A DNA stretch of 38,709 nucleotides from Lacihabitans soyangensis (GTDB taxonomy: Bacteria > Bacteroidota > Bacteroidia > Cytophagales > Spirosomataceae): NCBI RefSeq assembly GCF_024343775.1, contig NZ_RJUF01000032.1, positions 1 to 38,709 of the forward strand, read 5' to 3'. Made by a program: the position numbers and the translations under genes. Below the pieces are notes generated by a model. It did no database searches, was not told the origin of the DNA, and saw nothing but the letters and a program-made list of their open reading frames with translations. Position 1 is the stretch's first letter, and every line of letters starts with the position of its first letter. Below are positions 11,201 through 24,500 of the stretch, piece by piece.

Positions 11201-11781
11201 GGTGTCGCATTGCCAAAACCAGGGTCAGTATCTACAAAATATTCCAGTTTTACCAAGTTGGGTACATTGGGGCTTAGCTCGCTTTTGAAGAAATTTTGAG
11301 AAAAGACCACACTCCATTTACCAGCTGCATCTTTAGCTCGAATATAAAATTTATGAAAACCCAGTGGAAGATTTGAGGGCAAGGGGATGTTCAATTCTTT
11401 GGTAGAATTTAGGCCTTGTATTATGGGTACGTTTACTGCCAAACCTAAACCAGGGTCTGTATCAATGAAGTATTCGAGTTTAGTGATATTAGCAGCGGAA
11501 CTTTCTAAACCAATTTTGAAGAAATTCTGACTTTGCACCATCGACCATCGCCCGTTGCTATCTTTGGCTCGGATGTAAATTTTATGTATGCCATCACTAA
11601 GACCTGAAATAAGAGGAATACTAAGATTGGCGTTCGCGGTGCTTGTACCTGAAAAAGGCACCAAAATTGCAGCTCCATAACCCGGATCGGTATCAATAAA
11701 ATACTCTATTCGTTGAATAGTCTGGGCCGATAGATTCACCAGCCATCCTAATAAAAGGAAGCTTATTAAAATCTTTTTCAT
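8278..11781 (-). CDS. Large exported multidomain protein with EYFIDTDPG repeats
   Basis: A 1167-residue protein with a signal peptide (MKKILISFLLLGWLVNLSAQ, cut near residue 20). Three tandem repeats of about 75-80 residues follow, each opening with EYF(I/V)DTDPG.G.A and closing with (H/Y)(K/V)(F/I/L)YIRAKD..GKWS. The middle has Ig/PKD-like modules with paired cysteines. A beta-propeller-like part (about 680-850) repeats GG.(D/S).W...D..GN.....FGG. The C-terminus (RAGSSILLNPGFVMVPSSG, ending in GGC) matches the 3-coathanger-stack type domain of exported Bacteroidota proteins. It is probably surface-exposed or secreted and adhesive. It follows the beta-helix gene by 6 bp, so the two are cotranscribed with the LytTR gene. 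Confidence 0.8.
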   Translation of the reverse strand: MKKILISFLLLGWLVNLSAQTIQRIEYFIDTDPGYGAAILVPFSGTSTANANLSIPLISGLSDGIHKIYIRAKDSNGRWSMVQSQNFFKIGLESSAANITKLEYFIDTDPGLGLAVNVPIIQGLNSTKELNIPLPSNLPLGFHKFYIRAKDAAGKWSVVFSQNFFKSELSPNVPNLVKLEYFVDTDPGFGNATPIPINPSQTVNLENINLSLPLGLAVGEHVLYIRGQDALGKWSIVSSPKFMNCPTGTLLSVIGNPYKCSGTTQMSAAIPVGVNSWVWLKDNAEIEHSGETSISVSEGGNYSVKTQTGLTNACSTQVSNVVKVVFANEDSLGIKTNRTLINCNQPATLSIDSTKSNFSAPEFTTFQWFKDNVSFTSGPNATVITKGIYKLRVSYSGPLAACTVKESQEITLSELPVSLNISPISHQPNVLKLCTGSSVDFLAETSLEGNQSFQWFRNDVAIGGATQASLTNISQAGSYKYQVSVGSCHNLTSGVVEVQLVTGSGSAPSISLTSGTLNACPGSIANLSISSCSGTTIWSNQVVGTTLDVIQLNSAQTYSAYCLNSCMYKSNNSLTFLPLPATIPAPKILTDLPPYTSTYTVKQSSRTHGDAFRYNNYDSPLAIAPLQGGTSYYIDNQMTMNAFLPSGALKFPQIIVHNVPNTNAADIASVGFNKLLLAGDTPSGITGLKTQAGFGGNDIWLLWRDIEGNYLMDKTFGGNGGETGVKILKKTENEIFIVATSTSGISGNKTTASFGNSDIWVIKIDGNGNKLAEASFGGSSTDAARDAILLNSGSIAILGSSSSGPSGNKTSTLNSNTDLWLLQVDANLNLVWERSLALQNSSTNAGKSLIEKNGHIFVAQEGGRMAKYDLSGNLVANVAFNFTDHNQATSSGFSFKNLLKGPNNEMVAIGAGSGNVSMNVNSGTLLFVYSNIISFEFDENMLVNSPSRKTYGSYYTAMPDTPGRGFYDSEGQLNILHVGDVPACSTLVGNTYFADHSAYYNVLCNRGNITDGHWFLWKMGKYTPTEQTFTDYCKGKVFALQASYLENFPLANGLEFKWSNGQTGQHIEYISNTSEPLYAFVNKPDPNTCGSPVVKVQHTPYPDNQTLGGNQGTDRKRYTYQYLVSTEKIQNANTEYRAGSSILLNPGFVMVPSSGKPFKAEIGGCVN

Positions 11782-11787
11782 GGCTTT

Positions 11788-12813
11788 TTAATTGTTGCTT
11801 TGGATGGTGATACTGCCTGTCAAGCCTGATGCCGTAGAGCCTGTGGTACTTAAAAAGAAGTTGGTAATCACCGGAATAGGTGCTTGGCCGGATAAGCGGT
11901 AGGGGTTATTTCCACCAAATGGGCCAATGTCCTGACCAGAATTGCCTGCCAATAATGCTGGAGAACCCGATTTTGATTTAAATCTATTTTCACGTATCGG
12001 ATTTGTTGAATAAGGATTCGCCACAATAAATAGGGCTGACATGTCTATACCTTCTATATTATTGTTAATTCCAGCAACTGGAAAAGTAGTACCTGTACCT
12101 ACTTTTATGCAATGACTGAAACTATTTGTAAGTGGGCAGTTGGCTGGTATAGTGTTAATTATACAATTGGTGAAAGTACAGTTTGTTATAAATGAAGTTG
12201 AGAAAGAATGAATGTAACATTGGTCAAACTGAGCAAAGTTTACGGTTTGAATAAATTCTCCAATGATACAATTTCTTATAATGGTATTGACACCAATCCC
12301 GAAAATGGCTCCTGCAGCTCCAAAAAAACATTCTTCAATGATGCAATTGGCAGCACCTAATGACAAGTCGGCATCAAACATGCATCTTTTGACTCTGATT
12401 TCGTTGGCATTCAGGTTACCATTTGACGTACATCTTATTCCAATTAATTGTGATTGTTCGGAACCTGCTAAGAAAGTCAAGTTACCAAAGGTACTTTCGA
12501 GAACAGTATAGGGCAATGGATTCGTTAAGCCTGCGTTTACACCTATTTCATAACCATTGCCGATGATAATTAAACGCTTTGTAAAGTTGTGATTTCCATA
12601 GGTTAAGGTGGAGGGTTCTACATAAATTGTATCACCATTGACCGCAGCACTTAAAGCCTGAGCGAACGCATCTGAAGAGCCATTGGTTAAAGTATTCACA
12701 AAAACCAAACCTGCCACTGGAGTCGTGCCTACCTGATTCGTTACTCTTCGAACAGTGGCCGAGGCATTTCCTATGACCAAAAATGAAATTAAGATAAAAA
12801 CTGTCTTTTTCAT
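11788..12813 (-). CDS. Exported parallel beta-helix protein
   Basis: A 341-residue protein with a signal peptide (MKKTVFILISFLVIGNASA). The core has right-handed beta-helix character: short repeated strands such as IRVKRCMFDADLSL, NCIIEECFFGAAG, NTIIRNCIIGEF and FITNCTFTNCIIN, giving stacked asparagine and cysteine ladders. The end (SGQDIGPFGGNNPYRLSG, then a beta-rich tail) resembles other Bacteroidota exported beta-helix proteins that may bind polysaccharide or act as adhesins. No catalytic motif is recognised. It lies 49 bp after the LytTR gene and 6 bp before the Ig-like protein gene, forming one probable operon. Confidence 0.75.
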   Translation of the reverse strand: MKKTVFILISFLVIGNASATVRRVTNQVGTTPVAGLVFVNTLTNGSSDAFAQALSAAVNGDTIYVEPSTLTYGNHNFTKRLIIIGNGYEIGVNAGLTNPLPYTVLESTFGNLTFLAGSEQSQLIGIRCTSNGNLNANEIRVKRCMFDADLSLGAANCIIEECFFGAAGAIFGIGVNTIIRNCIIGEFIQTVNFAQFDQCYIHSFSTSFITNCTFTNCIINTIPANCPLTNSFSHCIKVGTGTTFPVAGINNNIEGIDMSALFIVANPYSTNPIRENRFKSKSGSPALLAGNSGQDIGPFGGNNPYRLSGQAPIPVITNFFLSTTGSTASGLTGSITIQSNN

Positions 12814-12862: not shown

Positions 12863-13234
12863 TTAGGAATTTAATATTTGAATGGACTGAAACAAATCGT
12901 TCCGCTTTCTTCTGGAAATCACACACTGCATGTCGTTAATCAAAAAGGCATTAGAACCTTCTACATACTTCAAAAACTGTGTATTAATCATAAAAGAGCG
13001 GTGAATTCTTACCATGTTTCTGAAGGGTAGAAAGCGTTCTTCGAGTTTTTGGATATTTGTGCTTACTATGATTCGTTGACCGTTTTTGAGATACAGAAAA
13101 GAATAGCTGATATCCGCCTGAATCATTACGATTTCGGTCGGAAAAAACTCTAATCTTGAGCCCACATGTACAGAAGTGAACGGAGCAATGCTCTCCGTAA
13201 AGTTTTTGGTGATTTTTTTTCTTGATGTTGACAT
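12863..13234 (-). CDS. Stand-alone LytTR DNA-binding regulator
   Basis: A 123-residue protein made almost entirely of a LytTR domain (about residues 28-118): IVMIQADISYSFLYLKNGQRIIVSTNI, then LEERFLPFRNMVRIHRSFMIN and a final VISRRKRNDLF. There is no receiver domain, so its activity is presumably set by its own level, by a ligand or by a partner. It heads an operon with two exported-protein genes. Its promoter carries the CTACTAA palindrome shared with the response regulator gene at 20831-21463, making it a likely second-tier regulator. An inverted repeat also overlaps its -7 element and start codon. Confidence 0.85.
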   Translation of the reverse strand: MSTSRKKITKNFTESIAPFTSVHVGSRLEFFPTEIVMIQADISYSFLYLKNGQRIIVSTNIQKLEERFLPFRNMVRIHRSFMINTQFLKYVEGSNAFLINDMQCVISRRKRNDLFQSIQILNS

Positions 13235-13264
13235 AGCTTTGCTTATTTTATTAATACAAAGCTA
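13234..13264. promoter_or_regulatory. Inverted repeat spanning the LytTR promoter and start codon
   Basis: TAGCTTTG (13234-13241) and CAAAGCTA (13257-13264) are perfect 8-bp inverted copies 15 bp apart. The right arm is the -7 element itself; the left arm touches the ATG. It could be a self-regulatory site, or the second arm could be coincidental. Confidence 0.4.
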
Positions 13265-13303
13265 CTTAGCATTATTAAGCGGCGGTACTACTAATGTTAG
13301 TAG
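13257..13303 (-). promoter_or_regulatory. LytTR operon promoter with CTACTAA palindrome
   Basis: On the minus strand the -7 element is TAGCTTTG (13264-13257), a perfect TAnnTTTG. Exactly 23 bp upstream lies CTACTAA-CA-TTAGTAG (13303-13288), a perfect 7-bp inverted repeat. No TTG box is seen between them, which suggests an activator-dependent promoter. The same motif and spacing occur at 15217-15263 and 21478-21524. Confidence 0.75.
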
Positions 13304-13357
13304 GTGATTTTGAGAAAATTCGGGTTAAGTACATTAAGAAACAAAGAATAAAACCAA

Positions 13358-14080
13358 TCAATTATTCAGCAATTTCCCTTTCTCGGCCATTGGCTTTTCT
13401 TCCTCTACTTTTACTGGGTTTTGAAGGGCCCATTCGTCTTTTCTTGTGCCAGTTACTTGCCACGAGACTTCAGTGTTGGGCGTAGAAGTTTTAATTTCGA
13501 AGACATTCTCTTTTATTTTCTTTGAAACGATGGCTTGAGCAAATTCTCCGATTACCGTCAGCTGATATCTAAAGTCGGTGTTTAATGCCTCAAAATAGGT
13601 TGGAAGCGAAACTTTGGCCACTCCGTTGCTATCGGTGGTGATATTTCCACTGTATATGTTTATCATTTCTGGACTTTCTACAAAGCTGTGTGAAAGATAT
13701 TTGTTTAGAGGATCCTGCGGATGGTCAATTTTGAATGTCCCGCCTGCTTTGGAGAGATTGCCTGCAATATGAGCAGAGCCCTTTACCAATAAGCCGTATC
13801 CACCTGGAGTACTCAAGGCGTCTATTATTACACCATTTCCAAAGTTTCGACTGTAAACCACCAACTTAGCGTCCATGCTTTCGGTGGTACCAATCATAAA
13901 ATTATCTAGTGGCTCTTCGCTAGTGAATAAGGCCCCACCGTTCAAATGCAGTGGTCTCAGAGGATTGCTGGTGCCAATTCCGATTTTGGGCGTCAAGACT
14001 TTGTCTTTCTCCAGTTGAACGAATTGCGAAAATGCCTTTATCTGGCAAAAAAACAAGAGCAACAATATTGATTTTTTCAT
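13358..14080 (-). CDS. Exported protein with widespread FKIDHPQDPxNKYLSHSFVES module
   Basis: A 240-residue protein with a signal peptide (MKKSILLLLFFCQIKAFS). An N-terminal stretch (KIGIGTSNPLRPLHLNG) is typical of tail-fibre-like or trimeric surface proteins. The second half holds the motif GTFKIDHPQDPLNKYLSHSF, followed by INIYSGNITTDSNGVAKVSL, FEALNTDFRYQLTVIGEFA and VSWQVTGTRKDEWA. This module is widespread in surface proteins of many bacteria but has no assigned activity. It is the last gene of a three-gene run, 3 bp after its neighbour, ending in a charged Lys/Glu-rich tail. Confidence 0.75.
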   Translation of the reverse strand: MKKSILLLLFFCQIKAFSQFVQLEKDKVLTPKIGIGTSNPLRPLHLNGGALFTSEEPLDNFMIGTTESMDAKLVVYSRNFGNGVIIDALSTPGGYGLLVKGSAHIAGNLSKAGGTFKIDHPQDPLNKYLSHSFVESPEMINIYSGNITTDSNGVAKVSLPTYFEALNTDFRYQLTVIGEFAQAIVSKKIKENVFEIKTSTPNTEVSWQVTGTRKDEWALQNPVKVEEEKPMAEKGKLLNN

Positions 14081-14083
14081 TTT

Positions 14084-14596
14084 TTAGAAGTTAAAAGGTA
14101 CATTGTTTATAAAATCCCAACCTGAAGTATGATTAGAAACCAATGTACCCGATGGACCATAGGTTTTATATTCAAACGCAAACTGATTTATCCAAATATC
14201 AATTTCATGTGAACCACCACCAGTCTCATTCGCACGGTACCTGATGGCATTGATATAGGCATTTCTAATTTTTATGGTCATATAAATTTTACCACCCGTT
14301 CTGTACTGGAATATATTTAGGTTAATGGGTACATTAGAAGTGAAAAATGTACTCCAGATTTCAGGTGTGAAACCATCTTCTTCAATTTGTAATTTTATGG
14401 ATCCAGGTAAAACTTTATTGTTGTTTGACTGAAAATCATATTGAGCAGACAATACCTGAATTAAACCCGTTTTGCCGTCTGTTAGCGTTTTGGGCCCAAC
14501 AATTGTTGGATTTACAAAACTTATATACGTGTCAGTCTGCTGAGCTTTTGTGTTTAAACTAAAGGCAACAATTAATAAAGTAAATAATGCTTTCAT
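14084..14596 (-). CDS. Exported hypothetical protein
   Basis: A 170-residue protein with a signal peptide (MKALFTLLIVAFSLNTKAQ). The remainder is predicted mostly beta, with alternating hydrophobic strands such as KIYMTIKIRNAYINAIRY and HEIDIWINQFAFEYKTYG. No family is recognised. It sits in the middle of a probable operon, 27 bp after the gene at 14624 and 3 bp before the gene ending at 13358, so it is likely made together with these other exported proteins. Confidence 0.6.
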   Translation of the reverse strand: MKALFTLLIVAFSLNTKAQQTDTYISFVNPTIVGPKTLTDGKTGLIQVLSAQYDFQSNNNKVLPGSIKLQIEEDGFTPEIWSTFFTSNVPINLNIFQYRTGGKIYMTIKIRNAYINAIRYRANETGGGSHEIDIWINQFAFEYKTYGPSGTLVSNHTSGWDFINNVPFNF

Positions 14597-14623
14597 GTTG
14601 TAAATAGTAATTTATTGATTCGT

Positions 14624-15202
14624 TTAGAGGGTATCCGTGCAAGGCGTACCATTTTTTATATCGAAACAGGTTTGATTCACCCCCACTATGACTCCGCTCG
14701 TGTTAATCTTGCTCACGGCATATATAATTTTGTCGTAATTTAGTGTCAATAGGTATTCGGGTATTTGTGCTGTTAGTACATAGGATAACTGTTTTACGTT
14801 AATATTAAAAAGTTTAATATGTACTATTTCAGTCTGTGTAGGGCTGTTTTTATCCATAAAGAGATCTAAGGTGGGTAATGTGCTCCCCTTGAATATTCTT
14901 TCATGCCATTCGGTTATGGACTTATCTATGGGCAGTTCAATTTCAATAGGCTGAAAATCAGCCGCTTTAAAGTCCTTCTTGATACCCGTGCCACCTATAT
15001 AAATGGCCTTGGATGACGAAAATGCAAAGGAATAAATTCTGGTATTTTTGGCTTTGGGCTTTTTTGTAAACGATGTCCTAGTGTCAACATTCACATTAGA
15101 TTCCCCATCTACTTTGGGAATATCCATGAAGAAAGAATATTGGCCGAATCCTATAACCGGCAATAGGAAAAGAAATGCAAGGAAGATTTTTCTCATGGGC
15201 AT
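14624..15202 (-). CDS. Exported hypothetical protein, first gene of a secreted-protein operon
   Basis: A 192-residue protein. The start is either the ATG at 15202 (MPMRKIF) or the one at 15196 (MRKIFLAFLFLLPVIGFGQ), which begins a clean signal peptide. The mature part is beta-rich, for example IYSFAFSSSKAIYIGGTG and LSYVLTAQIPEYLLTLNYD, with two cysteines near the C-terminus (QTCFDIKNGTPC) that could form a disulfide. No family is recognised. The promoter carries the CTACTAA palindrome in its most perfect form, so the operon is probably in the same regulon as the LytTR run and the response regulator. Confidence 0.6.
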   Translation of the reverse strand: MPMRKIFLAFLFLLPVIGFGQYSFFMDIPKVDGESNVNVDTRTSFTKKPKAKNTRIYSFAFSSSKAIYIGGTGIKKDFKAADFQPIEIELPIDKSITEWHERIFKGSTLPTLDLFMDKNSPTQTEIVHIKLFNINVKQLSYVLTAQIPEYLLTLNYDKIIYAVSKINTSGVIVGVNQTCFDIKNGTPCTDTL

Positions 15203-15216
15203 AATTGATTACTTCA

Positions 15217-15263
15217 CAAAATTATACCCTGAATGAATGTTGAAAACCTACTAATGTTAGTAG
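15217..15263 (-). promoter_or_regulatory. Secreted-protein operon promoter with CTACTAA palindrome
   Basis: The minus-strand -7 element is TAATTTTG (15224-15217), a perfect TAnnTTTG. The palindrome CTACTAA-CA-TTAGTAG lies at 15263-15248, extended here to 8-bp arms (15247-15264), again exactly 23 bp upstream. It lies just behind the stop codon of the AraC gene but is not followed by a T-run, so it is unlikely to be a terminator. Confidence 0.75.
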
Positions 15264-15268
15264 GTAGA

Positions 15269-16240
15269 CTAAGCCATCTTACGATACTTGTTGCGGTACT
15301 CCAAGGGAGTCAGGCCGGTTATTTTCTTAAAAGTTGTTCTGAAGGCCTTATTATCGGAGTAACCGACGTCCATCATTACCTCGTTGATGTTTTTGCGGCT
15401 ATTTTCGAAACTCCGCTTGGCGGTCTCTATTTTTACTCTTTGTATATACTCCAGCACCGAATTGTTGGTGGCGGCCTTAAATCTTCGCTCAAAACTTCGC
15501 CTTCCCAGAGCCACCAAATCGGCCAATTCTTCTACAGAGAGTTTGTTTTCGATGTTTTTTTCGATGTATTCTTGTACTTTCTGAATTTCTACGTCCTTGT
15601 GTTCTTTTTGGCCTTGAAAAATCGCAAAGGACGATTGATTGTTCCTGTCAATATCAATAGCAAAGTATTTAGAAGCCAAAATGGCTGTAGGTCGGTCAGT
15701 ATATTTTTCAACCAAGTGTAAAAGCAAATTCCAGTACGAATTAGCCCCACCACTCGAATAAATGCCGTGTTCTTCTGTGATTATACTGCCATCTTGTACT
15801 TCTACAAACGGAAACATCCGCCTGAATTCGTTCACAAATCCCCAATGGGTAGAGCATTTTTTACCGTCTAAAAGGCCCGTGGAGGCCAAAAGAAAGGCTC
15901 CAACACAAAGTGAGGCTACCTCAGCACCTTGTTCTTTTTGCTTCAAAATCCAAGGAATAAAGTCGGCATTGGCCGCGATGGCAGTGCTCATGTCGCCAAA
16001 TAAGGCAGGAATAATGACCAAGTCTGAATCAAATTCTTCGTTGATAAGTCGATCAGCAAAAACGCTGAAACGACCCTCATTGAGTTTTGTTTCGTGATTG
16101 AGCCCGACTAGTTTAACATCGAACAAGGGAGCCTGCCCAGCGATTTGAAGAAATTGATTGGCCGCACTAAAACAATACTGCGGGTCAGCTATGGCCTGCA
16201 TAACCGACTGCTCTGGAACAAGGATACTAACTTTAATCAT
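15269..16240 (-). CDS. GlxA-like transcriptional regulator (DJ-1/PfpI domain plus AraC HTH)
   Basis: A 323-residue regulator from the ATG at 16240; an upstream extension of the frame to 16411 lacks family similarity. The N-terminal part (about 2-185) is a DJ-1/PfpI amidase-like domain, with VSILVPE at the start and the nucleophile-elbow-like ASLCVGAFLLASTGLLDGK (C112). The C-terminal part (about 233-320) is an AraC double helix-turn-helix: LSVEELADLVALGRRSFERR, then INEVMMDVGYSDNKAFRTTF and LTPLEYRNKY. Such regulators usually activate nearby metabolic or stress genes. It diverges from the AHSA1/SRPBCC gene, a plausible target. A TATATTTG -7 element at 16245-16252 lies so close to the start that the mRNA may be leaderless. 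Confidence 0.9.
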   Translation of the reverse strand: MIKVSILVPEQSVMQAIADPQYCFSAANQFLQIAGQAPLFDVKLVGLNHETKLNEGRFSVFADRLINEEFDSDLVIIPALFGDMSTAIAANADFIPWILKQKEQGAEVASLCVGAFLLASTGLLDGKKCSTHWGFVNEFRRMFPFVEVQDGSIITEEHGIYSSGGANSYWNLLLHLVEKYTDRPTAILASKYFAIDIDRNNQSSFAIFQGQKEHKDVEIQKVQEYIEKNIENKLSVEELADLVALGRRSFERRFKAATNNSVLEYIQRVKIETAKRSFENSRKNINEVMMDVGYSDNKAFRTTFKKITGLTPLEYRNKYRKMA

Positions 16241-16244
16241 GAGC

Positions 16245-16252
16245 CAAATATA
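16245..16252 (-). promoter_or_regulatory. -7 element of the GlxA-like gene, possibly leaderless transcript
   Basis: The minus strand reads TATATTTG, a perfect TAnnTTTG, ending 4 bp before the ATG. With the usual spacing, transcription would start at or next to the A of the start codon. No alternative downstream start with family similarity exists. Confidence 0.35.
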
Positions 16253-16304
16253 CCTAAATTTCCAATTTGACGCAAAACACCCTTTTATTGTCTCTATGAA
16301 CTGC

Positions 16305-16334
16305 TTTGATTTTCGAAACATCCTTCTATTTTTG
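16305..16334 (+). promoter_or_regulatory. Promoter of the SRPBCC gene
   Basis: TTTG (16305-16308) as the -33 box and TATTTTTG (16327-16334) as a perfect -7 box, 18 bp apart, match the Bacteroidota housekeeping promoter. The leader to the ATG at 16360 is about 20 nt. Confidence 0.6.
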
Positions 16335-16359
16335 CGAATATTCTTAAAAATAAAGCAAG

Positions 16360-16776
16360 ATGGAAACAACAAAAATAACCGTAGAGGTGAACGTAAACGC
16401 TTCTCCAGCATTGGTTTGGGAGTATTTCAATGCCCCAGAACACCTCACCAAATGGTGTGCAGCCTCTGATGACTGGCACATGCCAAGTGCCTCCAATGAC
16501 TTACGCGTAGGAGGAGAATTCAACAATCGCATGGAGGCCAAAGATGGTAGTTTTGGATTTGATTTCAAAGGTACCTACACCGAAGTAATCGAATTTTCAA
16601 AAATTAGCTACACCATGGAAGACGGCCGTACCGTGGATATTTTCTTTGTGAAGAATGGTGACACCACTGATTTGAAAGAAATATTTGACGCAGAATCTGA
16701 AAACCCCGTAGATATGCAAAAAGCAGGCTGGCAGGCTATTTTGGACAATTTCAAAAAATACGTTGAAAGTTTGTAA
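16360..16776 (+). CDS. AHSA1/SRPBCC-domain protein
   Basis: A 138-residue START-like (SRPBCC) protein of the AHSA1 type: ITVEVNVNASPALVWEYFNAPEHLTKWCAA at the start, with the typical W-x-Y/F and P-E-H-x-x-x-W pattern, then LRVGGEFNNRMEAKDGSFGFDFKGTYTEV and the C-terminal amphipathic helix AGWQAILDNFKKYVESL. The fold forms a hydrophobic cavity for small ligands; the actual ligand cannot be inferred. It is monocistronic, diverging from the GlxA-like regulator and ending at a strong shared terminator. Confidence 0.88.
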   Translation: METTKITVEVNVNASPALVWEYFNAPEHLTKWCAASDDWHMPSASNDLRVGGEFNNRMEAKDGSFGFDFKGTYTEVIEFSKISYTMEDGRTVDIFFVKNGDTTDLKEIFDAESENPVDMQKAGWQAILDNFKKYVESL

Positions 16777-16784
16777 AAAATGAA

Positions 16785-16812
16785 AGTTCTTGGTCATAAG
16801 AGACCAAGAACT
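16785..16812. terminator. Bidirectional terminator between convergent genes
   Basis: AGTTCTTGGTC (16785-16795) and GACCAAGAACT (16802-16812) form a perfect 11-bp stem with a 6-nt loop, flanked by an A-run before and a T-run after. It serves both the SRPBCC gene (stop 16776) and the membrane gene whose stop codon is at 16817-16819. Confidence 0.85.
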
Positions 16813-16816
16813 CATT

Positions 16817-17599
16817 TTAAGCTATAAATGGCTTTCCGACTAAGGCCTGAACCATAGTAAATACCACAAAGAGGAAATAAAGCATAGAAAATATCCACAC
16901 CCGCTGTTTTGCCCTCGCTTGATTTTCAATACTTTGAGATACAAAATATCCTATAATTGGAATCAGCTGCAAAGAGTGTATGCCAAAAAAATGTGCTACC
17001 CGTAAATCACCAAACAGGGTACTCCAGTTGAGCAATGGCAGTCCCTTCGCTCCTATTTTGCCTCCTACATTGTGCGAGTTTATGCCGCTCATGTAGCCAC
17101 CAAAAAAGCTGAATATCACAAACATAACGAGCCCGATTTGAATTGACAAAGCAAAGGAATCGCTGATAATGTAATTCTTTTGTCTTATAAAACGTATGGT
17201 TAAAACCAAGGTAGCTGTGGTCAGCCAGACAATCATGATACCCATCAGAGCATAAAGTATGCCGCCCACAATCTCTGTCTGATTAAAATGCGACAGTTTT
17301 CCCCGAAATGCTTGAATTGTTATCACTCCATTTTCGTACAACATTGTCGCAACCGCCAGATAGGTATATTGTTTTACTTTTTGTTGTTTCTCAACATAAA
17401 ACAATAAATAGGCCATAGACCAAGCATATATCCACGTACTCAAGGCAAACTTTATAGGTTTAATCATGGAATTAATACCCAAAACTTCGGTGGTATTGAC
17501 GGTGGCGTAAAGTCCCAACATTACAGCCAAAATCAGAAAAAACATACCCATTTTTGCCATTAAGGCATTTCTTCGAACTATTTCTCTATAAAAATTCAT
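16817..17599 (-). CDS. Hypothetical multi-pass membrane protein
   Basis: A 260-residue integral membrane protein with about seven hydrophobic helices, for example MGMFFLILAVMLGLYA, WIYAWSMAYLLFYVE, IVGGILYALMGIMIVWLT, IGLVMFVIFSFFGGYMSG and IFSMLYFLFVVFTMVQAL. Conserved-looking polar spots inside or near helices include INSMIKPIKFALS, GINSHNVGG and GDLRVAHFFGIHSLQLIPIIGYF, with several histidines that could bind metal, haem or protons. I do not recognise a named family. The preceding gene on the same strand is the ABA4-like membrane protein, 85 bp away. Confidence 0.6.
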   Translation of the reverse strand: MNFYREIVRRNALMAKMGMFFLILAVMLGLYATVNTTEVLGINSMIKPIKFALSTWIYAWSMAYLLFYVEKQQKVKQYTYLAVATMLYENGVITIQAFRGKLSHFNQTEIVGGILYALMGIMIVWLTTATLVLTIRFIRQKNYIISDSFALSIQIGLVMFVIFSFFGGYMSGINSHNVGGKIGAKGLPLLNWSTLFGDLRVAHFFGIHSLQLIPIIGYFVSQSIENQARAKQRVWIFSMLYFLFVVFTMVQALVGKPFIA

Positions 17600-17684
17600 T
17601 TTGATAAAATGGTTAAAATTGACAATAAAATTTTACTTCAAATCTTACAATTTGAAAATAATTAGAGGTTAAATTACGGCAGAT

Positions 17685-18110
17685 TTAAGAGGTTATAGAC
17701 TTGGTTTTGAGCGACTTTATGATAAAAAATATCAAATAACCCATAGGACCAAACATAAATGTGAAAGGCAAAGCCAAAGTGTAAAGCCATCTCGAAATAC
17801 CCAAGGAGATACTTTTGCGAACAATGTAAGCACCAACGAACAGGTCGAAAGCCAAGTAATGAAACCAACCTGCAGCAACTGCGTTGTCGTTCTGAAAAAG
17901 TGTCTTTACATTAGCCAATGTACTGAAACTGTCAGCACGAAAATCTCCAATATCCTTTAAAATCAGACAAGCATAAACCACTGAAAACAAAACAATTAAA
18001 CCATTCAAAATACTTGCCTGTGTATATTTCCAGTTCGGTAGAAATATCAACAAAATCCAGCCGATAAGTATGCAGGAATTTCCCAACGAAAAAATTGAAG
18101 CAGCATCCAT
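17685..18110 (-). CDS. ABA4-like family (DUF4281) membrane protein
   Basis: A 141-residue membrane protein with four hydrophobic segments. The hallmark is WFHYLAFDLFVGAYIVRKS (about residues 82-100) followed by a segment ending LPFTFMFGPMGYLIFFII, the conserved W-x-H-x-x-x-F-D-L-x-x-G and P-x-x-x-x-x-GP-x-G pattern of ABA4-like proteins. In plants and some bacteria the family is tied to carotenoid metabolism; here its role is unknown and no carotenoid genes are nearby. It starts 1 bp after the DUF2141 stop codon, so the two are translated from one mRNA. Confidence 0.8.
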   Translation of the reverse strand: MDAASIFSLGNSCILIGWILLIFLPNWKYTQASILNGLIVLFSVVYACLILKDIGDFRADSFSTLANVKTLFQNDNAVAAGWFHYLAFDLFVGAYIVRKSISLGISRWLYTLALPFTFMFGPMGYLIFFIIKSLKTKSITS

Positions 18111-18111
18111 A

Positions 18112-18540
18112 TTAATCTATAAGTTTAATGGTGAAGGTATTGGTTGTAGGTGATATTACGACGTTGCAATCGCTAAACTCTGGTTCCGAAAACTTCGGTT
18201 TGAAGTTTTTAGAAAAACCAAAAGGTTCGGTTGGATATCCTACCAAATTCTTGTCTATCTTTTGGTTTTGATTTTTATCTTGGAACACCGCAATGGCATA
18301 TTCGCCGTAGGGAATATCTGTAAAATTAAAAATCATTTCACCAGCTTGATTCACCTTGGCCTCTTTGGCATAAGTTATAGAGCCTTCTTTTGGAAAAGCA
18401 CTGCCTTTCTTATAAAATGCTACACGCATGTTGCCCTTGGCTTGCTTAATGTTCTGAATTTTGATACTTACATATGGTTTTTCTTGAGCCGAAACCGAAT
18501 GGCTGAACCACAAAAACATGATGCAAATTATTTTTTTCAT
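18112..18540 (-). CDS. Exported DUF2141-domain protein
   Basis: A 142-residue protein with a signal peptide (MKKIICIMFLWFSHSVSA). The mature part fits DUF2141: VSIKIQNIKQAKGNMRVAFY near the start, GEYAIAVFQDKNQNQKIDKN (a D-x-N-x-N-x-x-x-D calcium-binding-like loop) and a segment starting YPTEPFGFSKNFKPKF. The family is periplasmic or exported and beta-rich, of unknown function. It is the first gene of a pair with the ABA4-like protein. A Crp/Fnr-type palindrome with class II geometry lies upstream. Confidence 0.85.
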   Translation of the reverse strand: MKKIICIMFLWFSHSVSAQEKPYVSIKIQNIKQAKGNMRVAFYKKGSAFPKEGSITYAKEAKVNQAGEMIFNFTDIPYGEYAIAVFQDKNQNQKIDKNLVGYPTEPFGFSKNFKPKFSEPEFSDCNVVISPTTNTFTIKLID

Positions 18541-18563
18541 ATATCAATTAGTGTTTGATGATG

Positions 18564-18609
18564 CAAAAATGAACAGCGTTTACAAAATATACATGTCACA
18601 AATGTGACA
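18564..18609 (-). promoter_or_regulatory. Crp/Fnr-type palindrome and -7 box upstream of the DUF2141 operon
   Basis: TGTCACA-AA-TGTGACA (18594-18609) is a perfect 7-bp inverted repeat. On the minus strand a -7-like CATTTTTG (18571-18564) follows after 22 bp, placing the palindrome centre near -42, the classic class II activator position. It lies 3 bp past the end of a Crp/Fnr gene, which is the obvious candidate binder. Confidence 0.65.
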
Positions 18610-18612
18610 AAA

Positions 18613-19206
18613 TCATTTTTGAGTCAAAGATTTTCTAATTCTACTCAGGGATTGTCTTTCTATGCCCAGATACGAAGATAAATCTGTAAGAGAAATACGA
18701 TTAAACAAAGTTGTATTTCGGCTCATGAAGGCCAGATACCGCTGTTCGGCGTTTTGAAACAAGAAACTCTCAATTCGAGATTGTTGCAACACCACCACCT
18801 CCTCGGCCACCAAACGGCCATATCGCTCAATGTTCTTAAATTTATCATATCCCTCCTGCATGTCGGTATAGGGCAGATTCACCACCACACATGGCTCAAT
18901 GCATTGAAAATTAAATTTTGCAGGGTTTTGTCGAATATAAGAAGGGTAGTCGGTTACGTATTCGTTTTCTCTCGAAAACCAAGTGGTGATTTCATTGCCA
19001 CGTTCATCCACATAAAACGCCCGCATCAATCCCGATACCAAAAAACCTATGCTGGTTTGCACTTGGCCTTCATTGAGATAAAAATCTTTGGATTTATAAA
19101 CCGAAATACTCAAAGCATCCGTAATGTAGGACAATTCGTCTTCGGTGATTTGTGGACATACGAGCCTATAATGGTTCAAATAAGTTTCTAACTCTTGAGA
19201 CCTCAT
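18613..19206 (-). CDS. Crp/Fnr-family transcriptional regulator
   Basis: A 197-residue regulator with an N-terminal cyclic-nucleotide-binding-like beta-roll (about 20-125; YKSKDFYLNEGQVQTSIGFL, then GNEITTWFSRENEYVTDYPS) and a C-terminal helix-turn-helix (about 155-195; RYLAFMSRNTTLFNRISLTD, then YLGIERQSLSRIRKSL). There is no cysteine pattern for an iron-sulfur cluster, and the usual cAMP pocket residues are not evident, as is common for Bacteroidota members of this family, which often sense other signals. It overlaps the upstream DinB-like gene by 4 bp (ATGA), so the two are coupled. Confidence 0.88.
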   Translation of the reverse strand: MRSQELETYLNHYRLVCPQITEDELSYITDALSISVYKSKDFYLNEGQVQTSIGFLVSGLMRAFYVDERGNEITTWFSRENEYVTDYPSYIRQNPAKFNFQCIEPCVVVNLPYTDMQEGYDKFKNIERYGRLVAEEVVVLQQSRIESFLFQNAEQRYLAFMSRNTTLFNRISLTDLSSYLGIERQSLSRIRKSLTQK

Positions 19207-19733
19207 GCCTTTTTAGATAAATATTGCTTTACTAATTCTTGGTGGTGAAATACATGATGTATCGTAAAATAGAGCATTTCTCTAACCGTAATTTTGCCCA
19301 AAAGTGGATGTGGAAGAATCATCTGATCAAAATCCTGCTCTGAATAATTTCTTAAGTTATTGATTATTAAATTTAAATACCTTATTAGGGTTTTAAAAAG
19401 CTGGGCTTTATGATCAAAATGAATGGGTTTGGGCAAAAAGGCACCTGTTGCTCGCCCACCCAGCTGAAGTTTTTCGTTATAACGTTGTACCAATTGATCA
19501 AATGTTTTGGAAGGTCTATTGGCTTTTCCAAAGACCATCTTCAAGGCAAATCTTGGCAATATAAAACCCTGAGCAAGAGGTCTTACCGACAAGACAATAT
19601 GCTTTAATTGCTGGCCTGCAGACCATTTATCAGCCCAAGCGAATTCAAAATCTTCCTGACTCAAGTTATCTAGATAATTGATAAATTGCTCATGATTGGC
19701 TTCTAATTTATCGAAAATCTCTTCTTTTTGCAT
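19203..19733 (-). CDS. DinB-like/DUF1569-type four-helix protein
   Basis: A 176-residue protein of the DinB/YfiT four-helix-bundle type: FDKLEANHEQFINYLDNLSQ at the start, then FAWADKWSAGQQLKHIVLSV with the first metal-ligand histidine, and near the end MLYFTIHHVFHHQELVKQYL with the clustered histidines. The family binds a metal ion and includes thiol-transferase-like enzymes, but the substrate is unknown. The gene shares an ATGA overlap with the Crp/Fnr gene; both are probably cotranscribed from upstream of 19733. Confidence 0.8.
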   Translation of the reverse strand: MQKEEIFDKLEANHEQFINYLDNLSQEDFEFAWADKWSAGQQLKHIVLSVRPLAQGFILPRFALKMVFGKANRPSKTFDQLVQRYNEKLQLGGRATGAFLPKPIHFDHKAQLFKTLIRYLNLIINNLRNYSEQDFDQMILPHPLLGKITVREMLYFTIHHVFHHQELVKQYLSKKA

Positions 19734-19766
19734 AGCTCCCTATTTTTTATACCAAGTTGAGATTTA

Positions 19767-20522
19767 TTATTCAGATTTCAAAACTTCCTCCAATTCAAAA
19801 AAACGCCAATCACCTGATTTTAAATCTCCAAGGTGCAAATTTCCGATTCTAACTCTCTTCAAAAGCGTCACTTCATAACCCAGCTTATAACACATACGCC
19901 TGATTTGCCGATTGAGTCCTTGAATCAAAACGATCTTGAAACAACGCTCATCAACGGCTACAACTTGGCACGGAAGAGTCATTTTACCCATTATTTCTAC
20001 CCCAGAACTCATTTTTTCTATGAAAGAATCATCAAAAGGTTTGTCCAATTTTACGAGATACTCCTTTTCAATTTTGTGCTCATTTCGAAGTATTTTATCA
20101 TAAATTCGACCGTCATCTGTCAAAATAAGTAGTCCTTCAGAGGCTTTGTCTAGCCTTCCGACATTAAAAACATCCTCAAAGGGAAGAATTTGAGAAAGAT
20201 TATCTACTATGGCCTGATTGAGCGTGGTCTCGATGCCCCTTGGCTTGTGAAAAGCCACATATTTGAAATTTTTCGGAGCCTGAATTACCTTATTTTCAAT
20301 ACGAATTTCTTGCTCAGGTTCTATGGTAACATTGGCCGAAGTTATAAGTCCGTCAATGATGACTTTTCCCTCAAAAAGCAAGTTCTGAGCCTCTCTGTTG
20401 GAGATTTGCAGCTTTTGAACAAGAAAATGTTGTAGCTTATTTCTAAAACTCAAGGCCGTTTTTTTTACAAATTTAGCATTTCTTGAAAATACTTTTATTT
20501 CACTTTTTCTGAAACAAAGCAT
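19767..20522 (-). CDS. RluF/RsuA-family pseudouridine synthase
   Basis: A 251-residue enzyme that isomerises uridine to pseudouridine in ribosomal RNA. An S4-like RNA-binding domain (about 28-75; LQHFLVQKLQISNREAQNLL) precedes the catalytic domain. The catalytic motif is VGRLDKASEGLLILTDDG (residues 121-138) with D125 as the active aspartate. The end has QGLNRQIRRMCYKLGYEVT, typical of the RluE/RluF/RsuA branch. The sequence favours RluF, but 16S-specific RsuA-like activity is possible. The first 20 or so residues are poorly conserved and the true start may lie slightly downstream. Confidence 0.88.
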   Translation of the reverse strand: MLCFRKSEIKVFSRNAKFVKKTALSFRNKLQHFLVQKLQISNREAQNLLFEGKVIIDGLITSANVTIEPEQEIRIENKVIQAPKNFKYVAFHKPRGIETTLNQAIVDNLSQILPFEDVFNVGRLDKASEGLLILTDDGRIYDKILRNEHKIEKEYLVKLDKPFDDSFIEKMSSGVEIMGKMTLPCQVVAVDERCFKIVLIQGLNRQIRRMCYKLGYEVTLLKRVRIGNLHLGDLKSGDWRFFELEEVLKSE

Positions 20523-20830
20523 TTTTTTTCACTTTTATTGAAACAAAACAAATCGGAAACGGAGGAAAAGAAGAGAGAAAATTACTGGATAATCATGGCA
20601 AACCTAATAAAAATTACTGATTATGAAAGTTTTATATTACAAAAAAAATTCAAAGAAGCTGTAAGCTATTTAAATATAAAACTTAAAAAAAGCTTTATTT
20701 GTCCGCTTTGAATAACTCTAGGTAATGAGCTCCAAGGAGTCACTAATAGCCTTAAAAACAGCATATTAATAATTTATCATCTTGTAGAGTATTAAATAAA
20801 TATTGAGTTTTTGAAGAAATACAACTGAAT
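20523..20830. other. 308-bp intergenic region with one possible very small gene
   Basis: AT-rich sequence between the divergently oriented outer ends of the RluF gene start and the response regulator stop. It contains a possible 38-codon frame (20595-20711) and no convincing terminator for the response regulator gene. Nothing else is recognised. Confidence 0.4.
20595..20711 (+). CDS. Possible 38-residue small protein or gene remnant
   Basis: ATG to TGA frame reading MANLIKITDYESFILQKKF and then KEAVSYLNIKLKKSFICPL. A purine-rich GGAGGAAAAG lies about 25 bp upstream, somewhat far for a ribosome binding site. The amphipathic, lysine-rich composition looks more protein-like than random, but nothing confirms expression. 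It may be the start of a lost gene, since it ends abruptly. Confidence 0.25.
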   Translation: MANLIKITDYESFILQKKFKEAVSYLNIKLKKSFICPL

Positions 20831-21463
20831 TTATACCAAATTATTCACCAAAGCCTTTGAAATGGCCTCTGTTGCTGAGTTAACATGCAGTTTTTTGTAG
20901 ATATTTTTTAAGTGAAAATTGACAGTTGGAAAACTCACTCCCAAATCAGCCGCAATCATTTTATAACTTAAACCCTTTACCAAAAGCTCCAAAACGTTCT
21001 TTTCACCAGCCGTAAGCTCCACAAAATCAGTCACTTTTGTATTTTGATTCTGAAACATCGTCAATACTTTTCTAGCAATTGAGGGTGTCATAGGAGAACC
21101 TCCCTGATAAGTATCAATTATAGCATTAATGTATTTCTCTGGCGAAGAATCCTTTAATATATAACCACTTGCTCCAGAGCATATTGCAGCAAAAATCTTC
21201 TCGTTTTCCTCAAAAACCGTTTGCATACATATCTGCACTTGAGGATACTGTTTCTTGACCAATTGCACCGCTTCTATACCTGATATACCCGGCATCTGAA
21301 TATCCATCAGAATCACCTCAGGTTTGTCTCTACGGGTATTTTCAAGGATTTCCTTGGCGTTGGGATAGGCATTGATAAATAGCAAATCTGGGCTACTTCT
21401 GACCGTTTCTATCAGCAGCTCTCGTATTTCGCTTTGGTCTTCGTATATGTTTACTCTTATCAT
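20831..21463 (-). CDS. NarL/LuxR-type response regulator
   Basis: A 210-residue response regulator. The receiver domain (1-120) has the acidic pair ED (8-9), the phospho-acceptor D54 in VILMDIQMPG and the lysine in GYILKDSSP. The output domain (about 148-205) is a NarL/LuxR helix-turn-helix: LTAGEKNVLELLVKGLSYKM, then GVSFPTVNFHLKNIYKKLHV. The partner is the kinase gene immediately upstream on the same strand; the 62-bp gap holds a separate promoter with the CTACTAA palindrome, so the regulator probably controls its own gene. Two-fold symmetric sites with 7-bp arms and a 2-bp centre suit a NarL-type dimer. Confidence 0.93.
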   Translation of the reverse strand: MIRVNIYEDQSEIRELLIETVRSSPDLLFINAYPNAKEILENTRRDKPEVILMDIQMPGISGIEAVQLVKKQYPQVQICMQTVFEENEKIFAAICSGASGYILKDSSPEKYINAIIDTYQGGSPMTPSIARKVLTMFQNQNTKVTDFVELTAGEKNVLELLVKGLSYKMIAADLGVSFPTVNFHLKNIYKKLHVNSATEAISKALVNNLV

Positions 21464-21477
21464 GGTTGGAATTTTTA

Positions 21478-21524
21478 CAAAATTCGACTTCTTCGTCTCA
21501 ATATAATACTACTAATTTTAGTAG
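21478..21524 (-). promoter_or_regulatory. Response regulator promoter with CTACTAA palindrome
   Basis: The palindrome CTACTAA-AA-TTAGTAG (21524-21509) lies exactly 23 bp upstream of GAATTTTG (21485-21478), a one-mismatch -7 box. It sits between the kinase stop codon (21526) and the response regulator ATG. The absence of a T-run after it argues against a terminator. Confidence 0.7.
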
Positions 21525-21525
21525 G

Positions 21526-24500
21526 CTATTTGGTAATCAAAATAATTTCGGTCCCGTTTTTGGTATTGATTAACAATTGGGCATTCATTTTTTTCGCCCT
21601 CTCCTTCATGTTCGAAAGGCCGTTTCCGGCATCCATTCTGGTAGTTTCTATTCCTTTTCCATCGTCTTTAAGCCTAAACTCCTTGGCCCCTATCATCTTT
21701 TTAACCTCAAAAATTACCGTGGTGGCTTCTGAATATTTGGCTGCATTGTTCATGGCCTCTTTAAAAATTAAAAAAATCTCCCGCCGATGTTCCGAAACCA
21801 CGCTTTTTGAATCAAAACCTTCGGGTATCAAGGCCCTAAATTCTATATTTTTAGATTCAAAAATATCTTTTCCAAAGTTCACGATTCTTTCCAGCCATTC
21901 TTCCTCTTGGTCATTTTTGGGATTGAGTTCGTACACCGCTTCGCGTACTTTGCCCAAAATCTCCCTTGACTTAAAAGATATGCGTTCAAAACGCTCAAGA
22001 AGCTCATTTTGAGGCAAATCTAGTTTTCTTTTGCTGAGTTCGGTGTACATCGTGAGACTACTTAAGGAGGCTGCTAGATCGTCGTGCAGATTACCCGATA
22101 TCTGATTTCGGAGCATTTGTTGTCTTTCCTTTTCCAGCTGATTTTGCCTGAACTTATAACCCAATGCTACAGAAAACAGAATGATTTCGAGCATAGAGCC
22201 AGCCATGATTATTTTATCTTGGTAGAGCGGCTCTATCCAGCCAAGATTCTGGAAGCCAACTATCATGGAAGCTATCACGAGAAAAAAAGTAGCCAAACCA
22301 TAATAATAGATAATGATGAGTTTTTTGAGGTAATAATCTATGGCAATGGCCACGAAAGTAAAGGAAAACATCATTCCAGAGGCTATGGCGAAGTAATTGT
22401 GCCAATAACGGAAATAAAAAAGAGAAAGTAAGGCATTACTGACAGACCAAAACAACAATACTCTTTTGGCAATTAACCATGGTTTTCCATACTGCTTTTT
22501 CAGATCCAGAAAGGAGTCCGTGAAAAAAATCAGGAACACGTTTGACACAAAAAGAAAAACAATGTAGGCAACTTCGTTGAACCAACTATTGGACCAAACA
22601 TATTGAAAACCAAACCCATACAAGGTCAACTGAAAGGCCCCGAACAAAATAATATATAGGGAGTAATACAAGTAGGTGAATTCTTTGATGGTAATCCACA
22701 AGAATATATTGTAGAGTGAAATAAGAATAATGAAACCCAAATAAATACCCCAAATCAACTTATTGCTACCCAACTGTTCCAAAAGTTCGTTTTCTTCCCA
22801 AATGAGAATCGGAAACTTTACATCTCTGGTAGACGATCCTTTAATATACATCACATAGTCCTGATTTTCAATCATATCTAATTTAAAAATCGGATTAGGC
22901 GACTTCAACTCGTACTTGTTTAGGGGAACTTTATCGCCAGACTTTTTATATAAAATGAGCTGATTTCGCTCATAGAGCCAGATTTCTACCTGCGAAAGTC
23001 GGGGATTATCGAGTTCGAAAAACCAGGATTTGTTCACCTTGTTTTTAAATGTAAATCGCAACCAGACGTCATTTGGGGTGTAACTAAAATTGGGAATCAA
23101 ACCCTTGTAAAACTTAAACTTGGCCAAGAAATTGGAGTCAGATGGATTGGGTTTATTGTAAAGTGACTTTGAATCAGAATAATATGATATATTCCTAGGT
23201 CGAAGTTTGAGTATTTCCTCGGTCAAAACATTGACATTGTTATTCCCTACCGTGTTTATGTCGGCGGGATTGAAGTAATTGAGGCCATTAATCCCGCCAA
23301 AATACAACCTGCCATTGGTAGAATCATTGAAAGAACAATAACCATTAAACTCAAAACCTTGAAGGCCATCGTTGATATTGAAAGAGTGGAATTCGTGGTT
23401 GTTTTTGGGTTCAAACTTCACAATTCCTTTGTTGGTACTGAGCCACAAGTTTTGAAATTTATCCGGCTCAATAGCATAAATAAACTCACTCGGAAGACCA
23501 TCTTCTCTCGTAATCCATTTTATTTTTTTTGTTTTCAAAGAGATATTAGCCAGACCATTGGAGGTTCCTACCCACAATTCGTCTTTTTGCCTCAAAAAAG
23601 ATGTCGGAATACAATTCGAAATCAACCTATTGATTTTAAACGACTTAAAACCATCAGATGAAGTTACTTCAAAGAACCCTTCATTATAAATGCCTACCAT
23701 CAGGGTGTCTTTGGACAAAAACTCCAGTAAGGTAATCCGCTTATTTTCGAATAAATTGGCAGCTTCGGCCCTCTTCGTACGTTTGTCTAACACAAAAATT
23801 CCTTCTTCAGTACCTATCCAAATGTCATTTCCAAACTCTTCCAAGACACGAATAAACTTCTTAGACATTTTATTTTGAGAGCCAGTGACTTCGACAAATT
23901 TACCATTTTGAAAATATGCCAAACCTTCAGAAGTGCCGAGCCAGAGTGTGCCGAGCTGGTCTTTGAGCATATACCTAATGGTGTTTGACGGTATTACTTT
24001 GGCATTAAGATTATAAAAGCCGTCAATAATACTGAAATCAGTGGCATTTACACGCCAAACGCCAGACTGTTGGGTTCCGAGCCACATGACATTTTGGTCC
24101 TTAACCACACTTCTTATCGAGAAATTCTGCATACTCTCTGGAAGTTTGCCTTCCAAGTTGAGTTTATAAGTACCAAAATTTCCAGGCAAAATTTGGATCT
24201 TATCAACGCCATAAGGATCCGTATTGGCCCATATGATTCCGTCTGGATCGATGTATATGTGGCTTATTTCGTCATTGTGAAGTTTGAAATTCGAAAAACT
24301 TCCTTTATTGGATATCTGCTCAAAAGTTTCGGATTTAGTATCAAAACATAGAAGTCCATTTCGTTCAGTCCCCAACCATACATTGCCTGACTTATCAGAA
24401 TCAATGTCAAAAACATGTCCGATAGGTCTATTTTTTGCAAAATCGGTCCATTTTTGCACTGCCAAGGTTTTCGAATCAAACTTTATGAAGCCATCAAAAG

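Follow-up and report, generated by a model that had tools for sequence, protein, structure and literature searches.

A palindrome at fixed promoter spacing as the predicted operator of a NarL/FixJ-type response regulator in Lacihabitans soyangensis, one member of a paralogous family

The window, that is, the whole stretch of DNA analysed here, comprises 38,709 nucleotides of Lacihabitans soyangensis (contig NZ_RJUF01000032.1, positions 1 to 38,709) and carries the 16-nt palindrome CTACTAANNTTAGTAG (CTACTAA-N2-TTAGTAG) at 13288-13303, 15248-15263 and 21509-21524. Each copy is located upstream of minus-strand genes, as a first-pass annotation had described, and the locus raises the question of which protein reads the palindrome and with what effect. 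Comparative analysis of this and related genomes identifies it, with high probability, as the predicted operator of the NarL/FixJ-type response regulator encoded at 20831-21463, which would activate its own gene together with LytTR and exported-protein targets and would represent one instance of a paralogous family.

All three copies have zero mismatches, and no further match was found in the window with up to two mismatches allowed. Shuffled windows contained 0.11 matches on average, and none of 100 reached three. All three sites have a gap of exactly 23 nt between the end of the palindrome and the 8-nt, TAnnTTTG-like -7 box, which confirms the annotated value; counted from the 14-nt core, the same gap is 24 nt. 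The flanks of the three copies differ from one another. The L. soyangensis genome (5.65 Mb, 198 contigs) contains four exact copies, namely those of the window and one on contig C185 (G000:C185:86267-86282), located 23 nt from TAGTTTTG and ahead of a gene whose exported product has GBD_T9SS_assoc domains. The three promoters described earlier are confirmed for the window, but the genome has four such promoters. The 23-nt geometry is present in all four, and a genome scan for copies without promoter spacing returned none (0/4); the boxes follow.AnnTTTG at four and TAnnTTTG at three of these sites. The reversed pattern, used as a control, had no exact match in this genome. With one mismatch permitted in the 14-nt core, 24 matches were obtained versus 42 for the reversed control; since this is no excess, only exact or near-exact copies are informative, and degenerate sites were left out of the target counts.

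When 84,980 species genomes were scanned for the combination of palindrome, gap and box, 22 stretches were returned, 20 from Bacteroidota and two from metagenome-assembled genomes (MAGs) of Bacilli, which were set aside, the box being present and no gene following it. The Bacteroidota matches belong to Lacihabitans, Emticicia, Arcicella and Jiulongibacter, to a Leadbetterella-labelled MAG and to other Bacteroidetes or Spirosomataceae MAGs. Within the family Spirosomataceae, exact copies occur in 17 of 222 genomes, 32 copies in total, and 27 of the 32 have.A..TTT[GA] at 23 nt. The exact palindromes in G030, G100, G209, G210 and G215, with no box at that distance, were judged to be chance occurrences. 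With four more sites from outside the 222 genomes, picked for their box, 36 sites were examined and 31 are boxed; every other gap from 5 to 44 had at most two matches among the 36. The 31 boxed entries correspond to 30 sites, one counted in both directions, and two of them are in Bacilli. Their boxes, for which the search required A at position 2 and TTT, end in TTTG in 27 cases and TTTA in four. Nine proteins behind sites were scanned, one from L. soyangensis and eight from relatives: two are YadA-head adhesin-like, two carry GBD_T9SS_assoc, one carries Peptidase_S74 and one is Hcp-like, while of the remaining three one has DUF1559 over the cut-off and two have nothing over it.

Orthologs of the response regulator (62-100% identity; next match 57%) have been identified in 19 of the 222 family genomes. 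Of the 12 genomes that contain a boxed copy, 11 have an ortholog, versus 8 of the 210 others (Fisher p 7e-13, phylogeny uncorrected), and the sole genome with a boxed copy and no ortholog, G002, is a 77%-complete MAG. By a strict test (at least five of six pairs in the palindrome and a gap of exactly 24 nt between the 14-nt core and.A..TTT[GA]) an operator lies upstream of the regulator's own gene in 11 of the 19 orthologs, and by a relaxed test in three more, so far in line with the expectation that relatives keeping the regulator also keep the motif. A separate case is a Bacteroidetes MAG (L046, 1-2484) that encodes a distantly related regulator with a TVNHH helix; an exact CTACTAATATTAGTAG (CTACTAA-type) operator stands ahead of that regulator's own gene, 23 nt before the -7 box.

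The comparison was extended to 113 family regulators, composed of the 19 orthologs and 94 paralogs (44-58% identity; three from the L. soyangensis genome). Upstream of these genes, 6-2-6 palindromes with no letters prescribed were recorded by their gap from the 14-nt core to.A..TTT[GA]. Perfect palindromes occurred 18 times at gap 24 and at most once at each of the other gaps between 10 and 39, and palindromes with five of six pairs 17 times at gap 24 and at most four times at every other gap; the peak at 24 stands over a wider gap range as well. The words found there are TACTAA-N2-TTAGTA, CCCTAA-N2-TTAGGG, CCCCAA-N2-TTGGGG, CACCAA-N2-TTGGTG and mixtures of these, and 35 of the 113 regulators have a strict operator directly upstream. 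For one paralog of the L. soyangensis genome (56% identical) the word is CCCTAANNTTAGGG, found exactly twice in 5.65 Mb, once before the paralog's own gene and once 1.1 kb further on, before the gene of a 109-aa LytTR protein (PF04397, 1.4e-13); both copies are 24 nt from the box.

The same arrangement was sought in 20 paralog neighbourhoods (253 kb), 19 of them chosen for regulators with a strict operator. Gap 24 gave 31 matches (18 own operators recognised by the pattern applied, 11 second operators and two unassigned) and other gaps at most four each; without the 18 own operators, on which the selection was mostly based, the 13 remaining matches still exceed four. A second operator is present in 11 of the 20 neighbourhoods, and in six of these 11 it directly precedes a LytTR gene confirmed by Pfam (PF04397). 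Base 4 of the second operator matches that of the first in 10 of 11 cases, with L319 matching in one half. Two findings make the response regulator the best candidate for the protein that binds: boxed copies and its ortholog tend to occur in the same genomes, and paralogs that differ in the recognition helix have a different palindrome at this position. The proposal of the first-pass annotation, that this regulator acts on its own gene, on the LytTR gene with the exported proteins and on the secreted-protein operon, is supported; it would bind and activate there.

What, then, distinguishes one word from another? The recognition helix has the form TV-x-y-H, with x = N182 and y = F183 in the window regulator, and covariation was analysed on 40 strict operators from 221 regulators (35 of 113 from the family, 5 of 108 from a phylum-wide draw). 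Asparagine at x goes with T at base 4 of both halves in 18 of 18 operators, histidine with C in 10 of 10 and arginine with A in four of four; for alanine (n=5) and cysteine (n=3) base 4 is mixed. With phenylalanine at y, base 1 is T in 12 of 12 operators; with S, T, D, W or A, base 1 of the left half is C in 26 of 27, all but L205. Residues were also shuffled among 21 clusters at 75% identity, using the left-half base of the first member of each cluster, a procedure that removes relatedness only in part. The best-match score of 20 of 21 clusters was reached by 0 of 10,000 shuffles for x and base 4, and the same score by 8 of 10,000 for y and base 1; the cross pairs were not special (10,000 of 10,000 for x and base 1, 9,043 of 10,000 for y and base 4). 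On a tree built without the two columns, each trait has 2-3 independent pairs, none discordant, and because they are so few no significance is attached to them. In an alignment with NarL, the two residues fall on K and V of its TVKVH, the DNA contacts K188 and V189.

A residue-base prediction, noted before the search, was then applied to 59 loci of the one other (Chitinophaga-like) family that had also supplied the five strict operators of the phylum-wide draw; of these loci, five (L329, L335, L336, L337, L338) are genes already seen, leaving 54. Eleven matches were obtained, five at gap 24 (L327, L351, L376, L379, L381) and six at gap 23 (L324, L333, L343, L345, L373, L389), gap 23 having been admitted only after the data were seen; the strict prediction of spacing 24 therefore failed in this family. 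Gaps other than these two had at most three matches each. Base 4 of both halves was as predicted in 9 of 11 (misses L351 and L389), and base 1 of the left half in 8 of 11. The L345 operator, 244 nt upstream, could be a chance match, while L324 and L376/L379/L381 resemble the training members L249 and L226 and are hence not independent. The arginine rule was contradicted by two TVRSHL regulators with CACTCA-type words. Taken together, the data suggest that two recognition-helix residues largely track the half-site word, with clear exceptions. As a separate observation, Chitinophaga-like family regulators with arginine in the recognition helix often have palindromes of the CACAT-N4-ATGTG or TACAT-N4-ATGTA type upstream, some of them 23-24 nt before the -7 box (L205, L249, L271, L324, L326, L329, L332, L333, L373 and others).

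In class II activation, the activator site lies near -41.5 and abuts the -35 region. If the -7 box occupies -12 to -5, as mapped in Flavobacterium psychrophilum (PMC9723704), the palindrome would extend from about -51 to -36 with its centre at -43.5, adjoining the -33 region and not covering it. With the start position borrowed in this way, the centre would come close to that of a class II site, and the spacing itself is exact to the base; unlike class II promoters, the window promoters have no TTG at -33, and the sigma factor would be of the Bacteroidota TAnnTTTG type. The absence of a -33 TTG had been pointed out before and is correct for the window (0 of 3 sites; TAC, GTT and TAT at -35 to -33), but it is not a general property, because TTG or TTT often abuts the operator in relatives: one or the other is found at -35 to -33 in 26 of the 35 family regulator promoters, and TTG in 4 of the 31 boxed CTACTAA entries. 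This layout would fit activation of the class II type by a dimer of the regulator, and by analogy with the family such activation would probably need phosphorylation. In eight target promoters (L001, L022, L025, L026, L027, L034, L045, L054), and in none of the listed regulator promoters, GTACCG directly follows the core, on -36 to -31, and may be the site of a second factor.

Two other DNA-binding proteins of the window, the LytTR protein (12863-13234) and an AraC/DJ-1 protein (15269-16411), might bind the palindrome in place of the response regulator, which would then be merely a target. LytTR relatives are indeed present in many loci with sites, one window site stands directly before the LytTR gene, and the AraC gene ends 5 nt from the copy at 15248-15263. 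However, paralogous regulators have a different palindrome at this position, one that varies with their recognition helix; moreover, the sites of LytTR and AraC proteins are usually direct repeats, and a two-fold symmetric site is better suited to a dimer of the GerE type. Binding by either protein is considered improbable. Scarcely more credit, and still little, is given to the possibility that the palindrome is the regulator's site and serves for autorepression, for which its position close to the promoter, at about -51 to -36 by the box placement of PMC9723704, could speak. A spacing kept to the base across promoters is expected for a contact with polymerase and needless for blocking, the three window promoters are without TTG at -33, and in relatives TTG or TTT abuts the operator without overlap.

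For two window copies, the stop codon of the upstream gene is 1 nt and 5 nt away, as might be expected of a transcription terminator, an insertion scar or a recombination repeat whose promoter spacing is incidental. The palindrome, however, is not G+C rich and has no T-run, its flanks in the window differ, the 23-nt gap is kept in 4 of 4 copies of the L. soyangensis genome and 27 of 32 of the family, and paralogs repeat the geometry with different letters. This explanation is rejected on the fixed gap and retains hardly any probability.

Several observations weigh against the palindrome as the operator of autoregulated activators of a wider family. The regulators with a strict operator directly upstream are only a minority of the family set (35/113). 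Five of the 19 orthologs, all of genus g55, have only a degenerate operator, read by eye in the same place with 3-4 of 14 specified bases changed. In G001, G006, G023 and G035 exact copies precede other genes and the regulator's own site is imperfect, and the five of 32 exact family copies without a box look like chance. Among the neighbourhoods several are closely related (L314/L315 and L309/L310, for example), so that their counts are not independent. Of the 108 regulators in the phylum-wide draw, 106 lie outside the family; the other two, L195 (the same gene as L127) and L206, belong to it. Only five of the 108 passed the strict test, these five share one family, and the gap histogram had no sharp peak. 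The box-to-start distance, finally, is borrowed from F. psychrophilum (PMC9723704).

If the response regulator does act as proposed, the genes described next, all on the minus strand of the window, would form a circuit. The presumed cognate sensor kinase (21526-25209, 1227 aa), paired on domains and adjacency, possesses a Reg_prop propeller, 7TMR-DISMED2, 7TMR-DISM_7TM, HisKA_3 and HATPase_c, and would phosphorylate the regulator. The regulator itself (20831-21463, 210 aa) combines a receiver (PF00072, 4.6e-20) with a GerE/LuxR helix-turn-helix (PF00196, 3.1e-16); D54 and K104 of the receiver are invariant across seven aligned family members and are presumably the conserved phospho-acceptor aspartate and the conserved lysine. 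The phosphorylated dimer would occupy both half-sites, with the centre about 43.5 bp ahead of the transcription start, and would assist the housekeeping sigma factor at promoters with the fixed-distance -7 box. Operator 1 (CTACTAAAATTAGTAG on the minus strand, 21509-21524) sits between the kinase stop and the regulator start, at the place where orthologs also have their palindrome, and lies 23 nt from the box GAATTTTG (21478-21485), through which the regulator would switch on its own gene in positive feedback.

Operator 2 (CTACTAACATTAGTAG, 13288-13303), 23 nt from the box TAGCTTTG (13257-13264), is followed by the stand-alone LytTR gene (12863-13234, 123 aa; PF04397 at 3e-11, over the cut-off) and by two exported proteins, one of 341 aa with a signal-peptide-like start and no confident family (11788-12813) and one of 1167 aa, judged exported by its N-terminus, with a C-terminal GCX_COOH (3-coathanger stack) domain (8278-11781; NCBIfam NF045639). 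Operator 3, with the same letters at 15248-15263 and 23 nt from the box TAATTTTG (15217-15224), precedes three proteins whose N-termini mark them as exported: an Hcp-like protein of 192 aa (14624-15202; PF05638) as first gene, and proteins of 170 aa (14084-14596) and 240 aa (13358-14080), both without a family. The regulator would activate both groups and the fourth, unlinked exported-protein gene, giving a positive-feedback switch for surface or secreted proteins in which the LytTR protein would form a second regulatory layer, probably controlled by its amount, as set by the GerE regulator, and not by phosphorylation of its own.

Three further features of this region were observed. The kinase joins Reg_prop propeller repeats to 7TMR-DISMED2 and 7TMR-DISM_7TM. 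Hcp-like (PF05638) proteins with a signal-peptide-like start lead regulated operons both in the window (14624-15202) and in L030. The regulated cluster is adjoined, at 5015-8005, by a large restriction-modification protein of the Eco57I/MmeI-like kind.

Neither autoregulation by NarL-type regulators nor the use of symmetric sites is new in kind. Like NarL, VraR and DegU, the regulator combines receiver and GerE domains and is associated with symmetric operators, to which position and covariation suggest that it binds; VraR and NarL are its nearest solved relatives by sequence. The NarL operator is TACYYMT-N2-AKRRGTA, a 7-2-7 heptamer arrangement, whereas the core here is 6-2-6, TACTAA-N2-TTAGTA, and 2 bp shorter. 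In contrast to these NarL/FixJ examples, the promoter is of the Bacteroidota type, and one fixed spacing is reused by many paralogs with different words. The LytTR protein shares PF04397 with regulators of the AgrA/LytR type and differs from them in that the Pfam scan found no receiver domain in it. Hybrid two-component systems of Bacteroidota have propeller sensors, as does the Reg_prop kinase described here; in contrast to them, kinase and NarL-type regulator are separate and the targets are exported proteins, with no evident polysaccharide-utilisation locus as judged from domain scans. To our knowledge, few activators have mapped sites in this bacterial group. Searches of an open-access library, which misses most subscription journals, brought up no report of this operator or regulon, of a geometry shared by Bacteroidota paralogs, of a relay from regulator to LytTR or of the residue-base rule, an absence that carries little weight.

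What results is an exact predicted operator and regulon for a two-component system not previously characterised. For the family, the proposed picture is that Spirosomataceae paralogs differ in their operator words while keeping one spacing, with two helix residues largely tracking the word. In its broadest form, which we favour slightly on balance, NarL-type regulators have radiated in Spirosomataceae, and partly in the Chitinophaga-like family, and many of these regulators are linked to the gene that encodes them, and in many cases also to a LytTR gene that stands alone, by a palindrome private to each and placed at a single fixed distance from the promoter; the half-site would be largely readable, the first residue setting base 4 (N=T, H=C, R=A) and the second base 1 (F/M=T, S/T/D/W=C). 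The shared promoter geometry, the differing words and the two residues that track them suggest that sister regulators are insulated from one another. If true, this would be a natural, nearly modular code of DNA recognition that insulates paralogous pathways within one genome. If the covariation holds in binding, the operators of many uncharacterised Bacteroidota regulators could be derived from the protein sequences, and the relay from regulator to LytTR would be a circuit that recurs.

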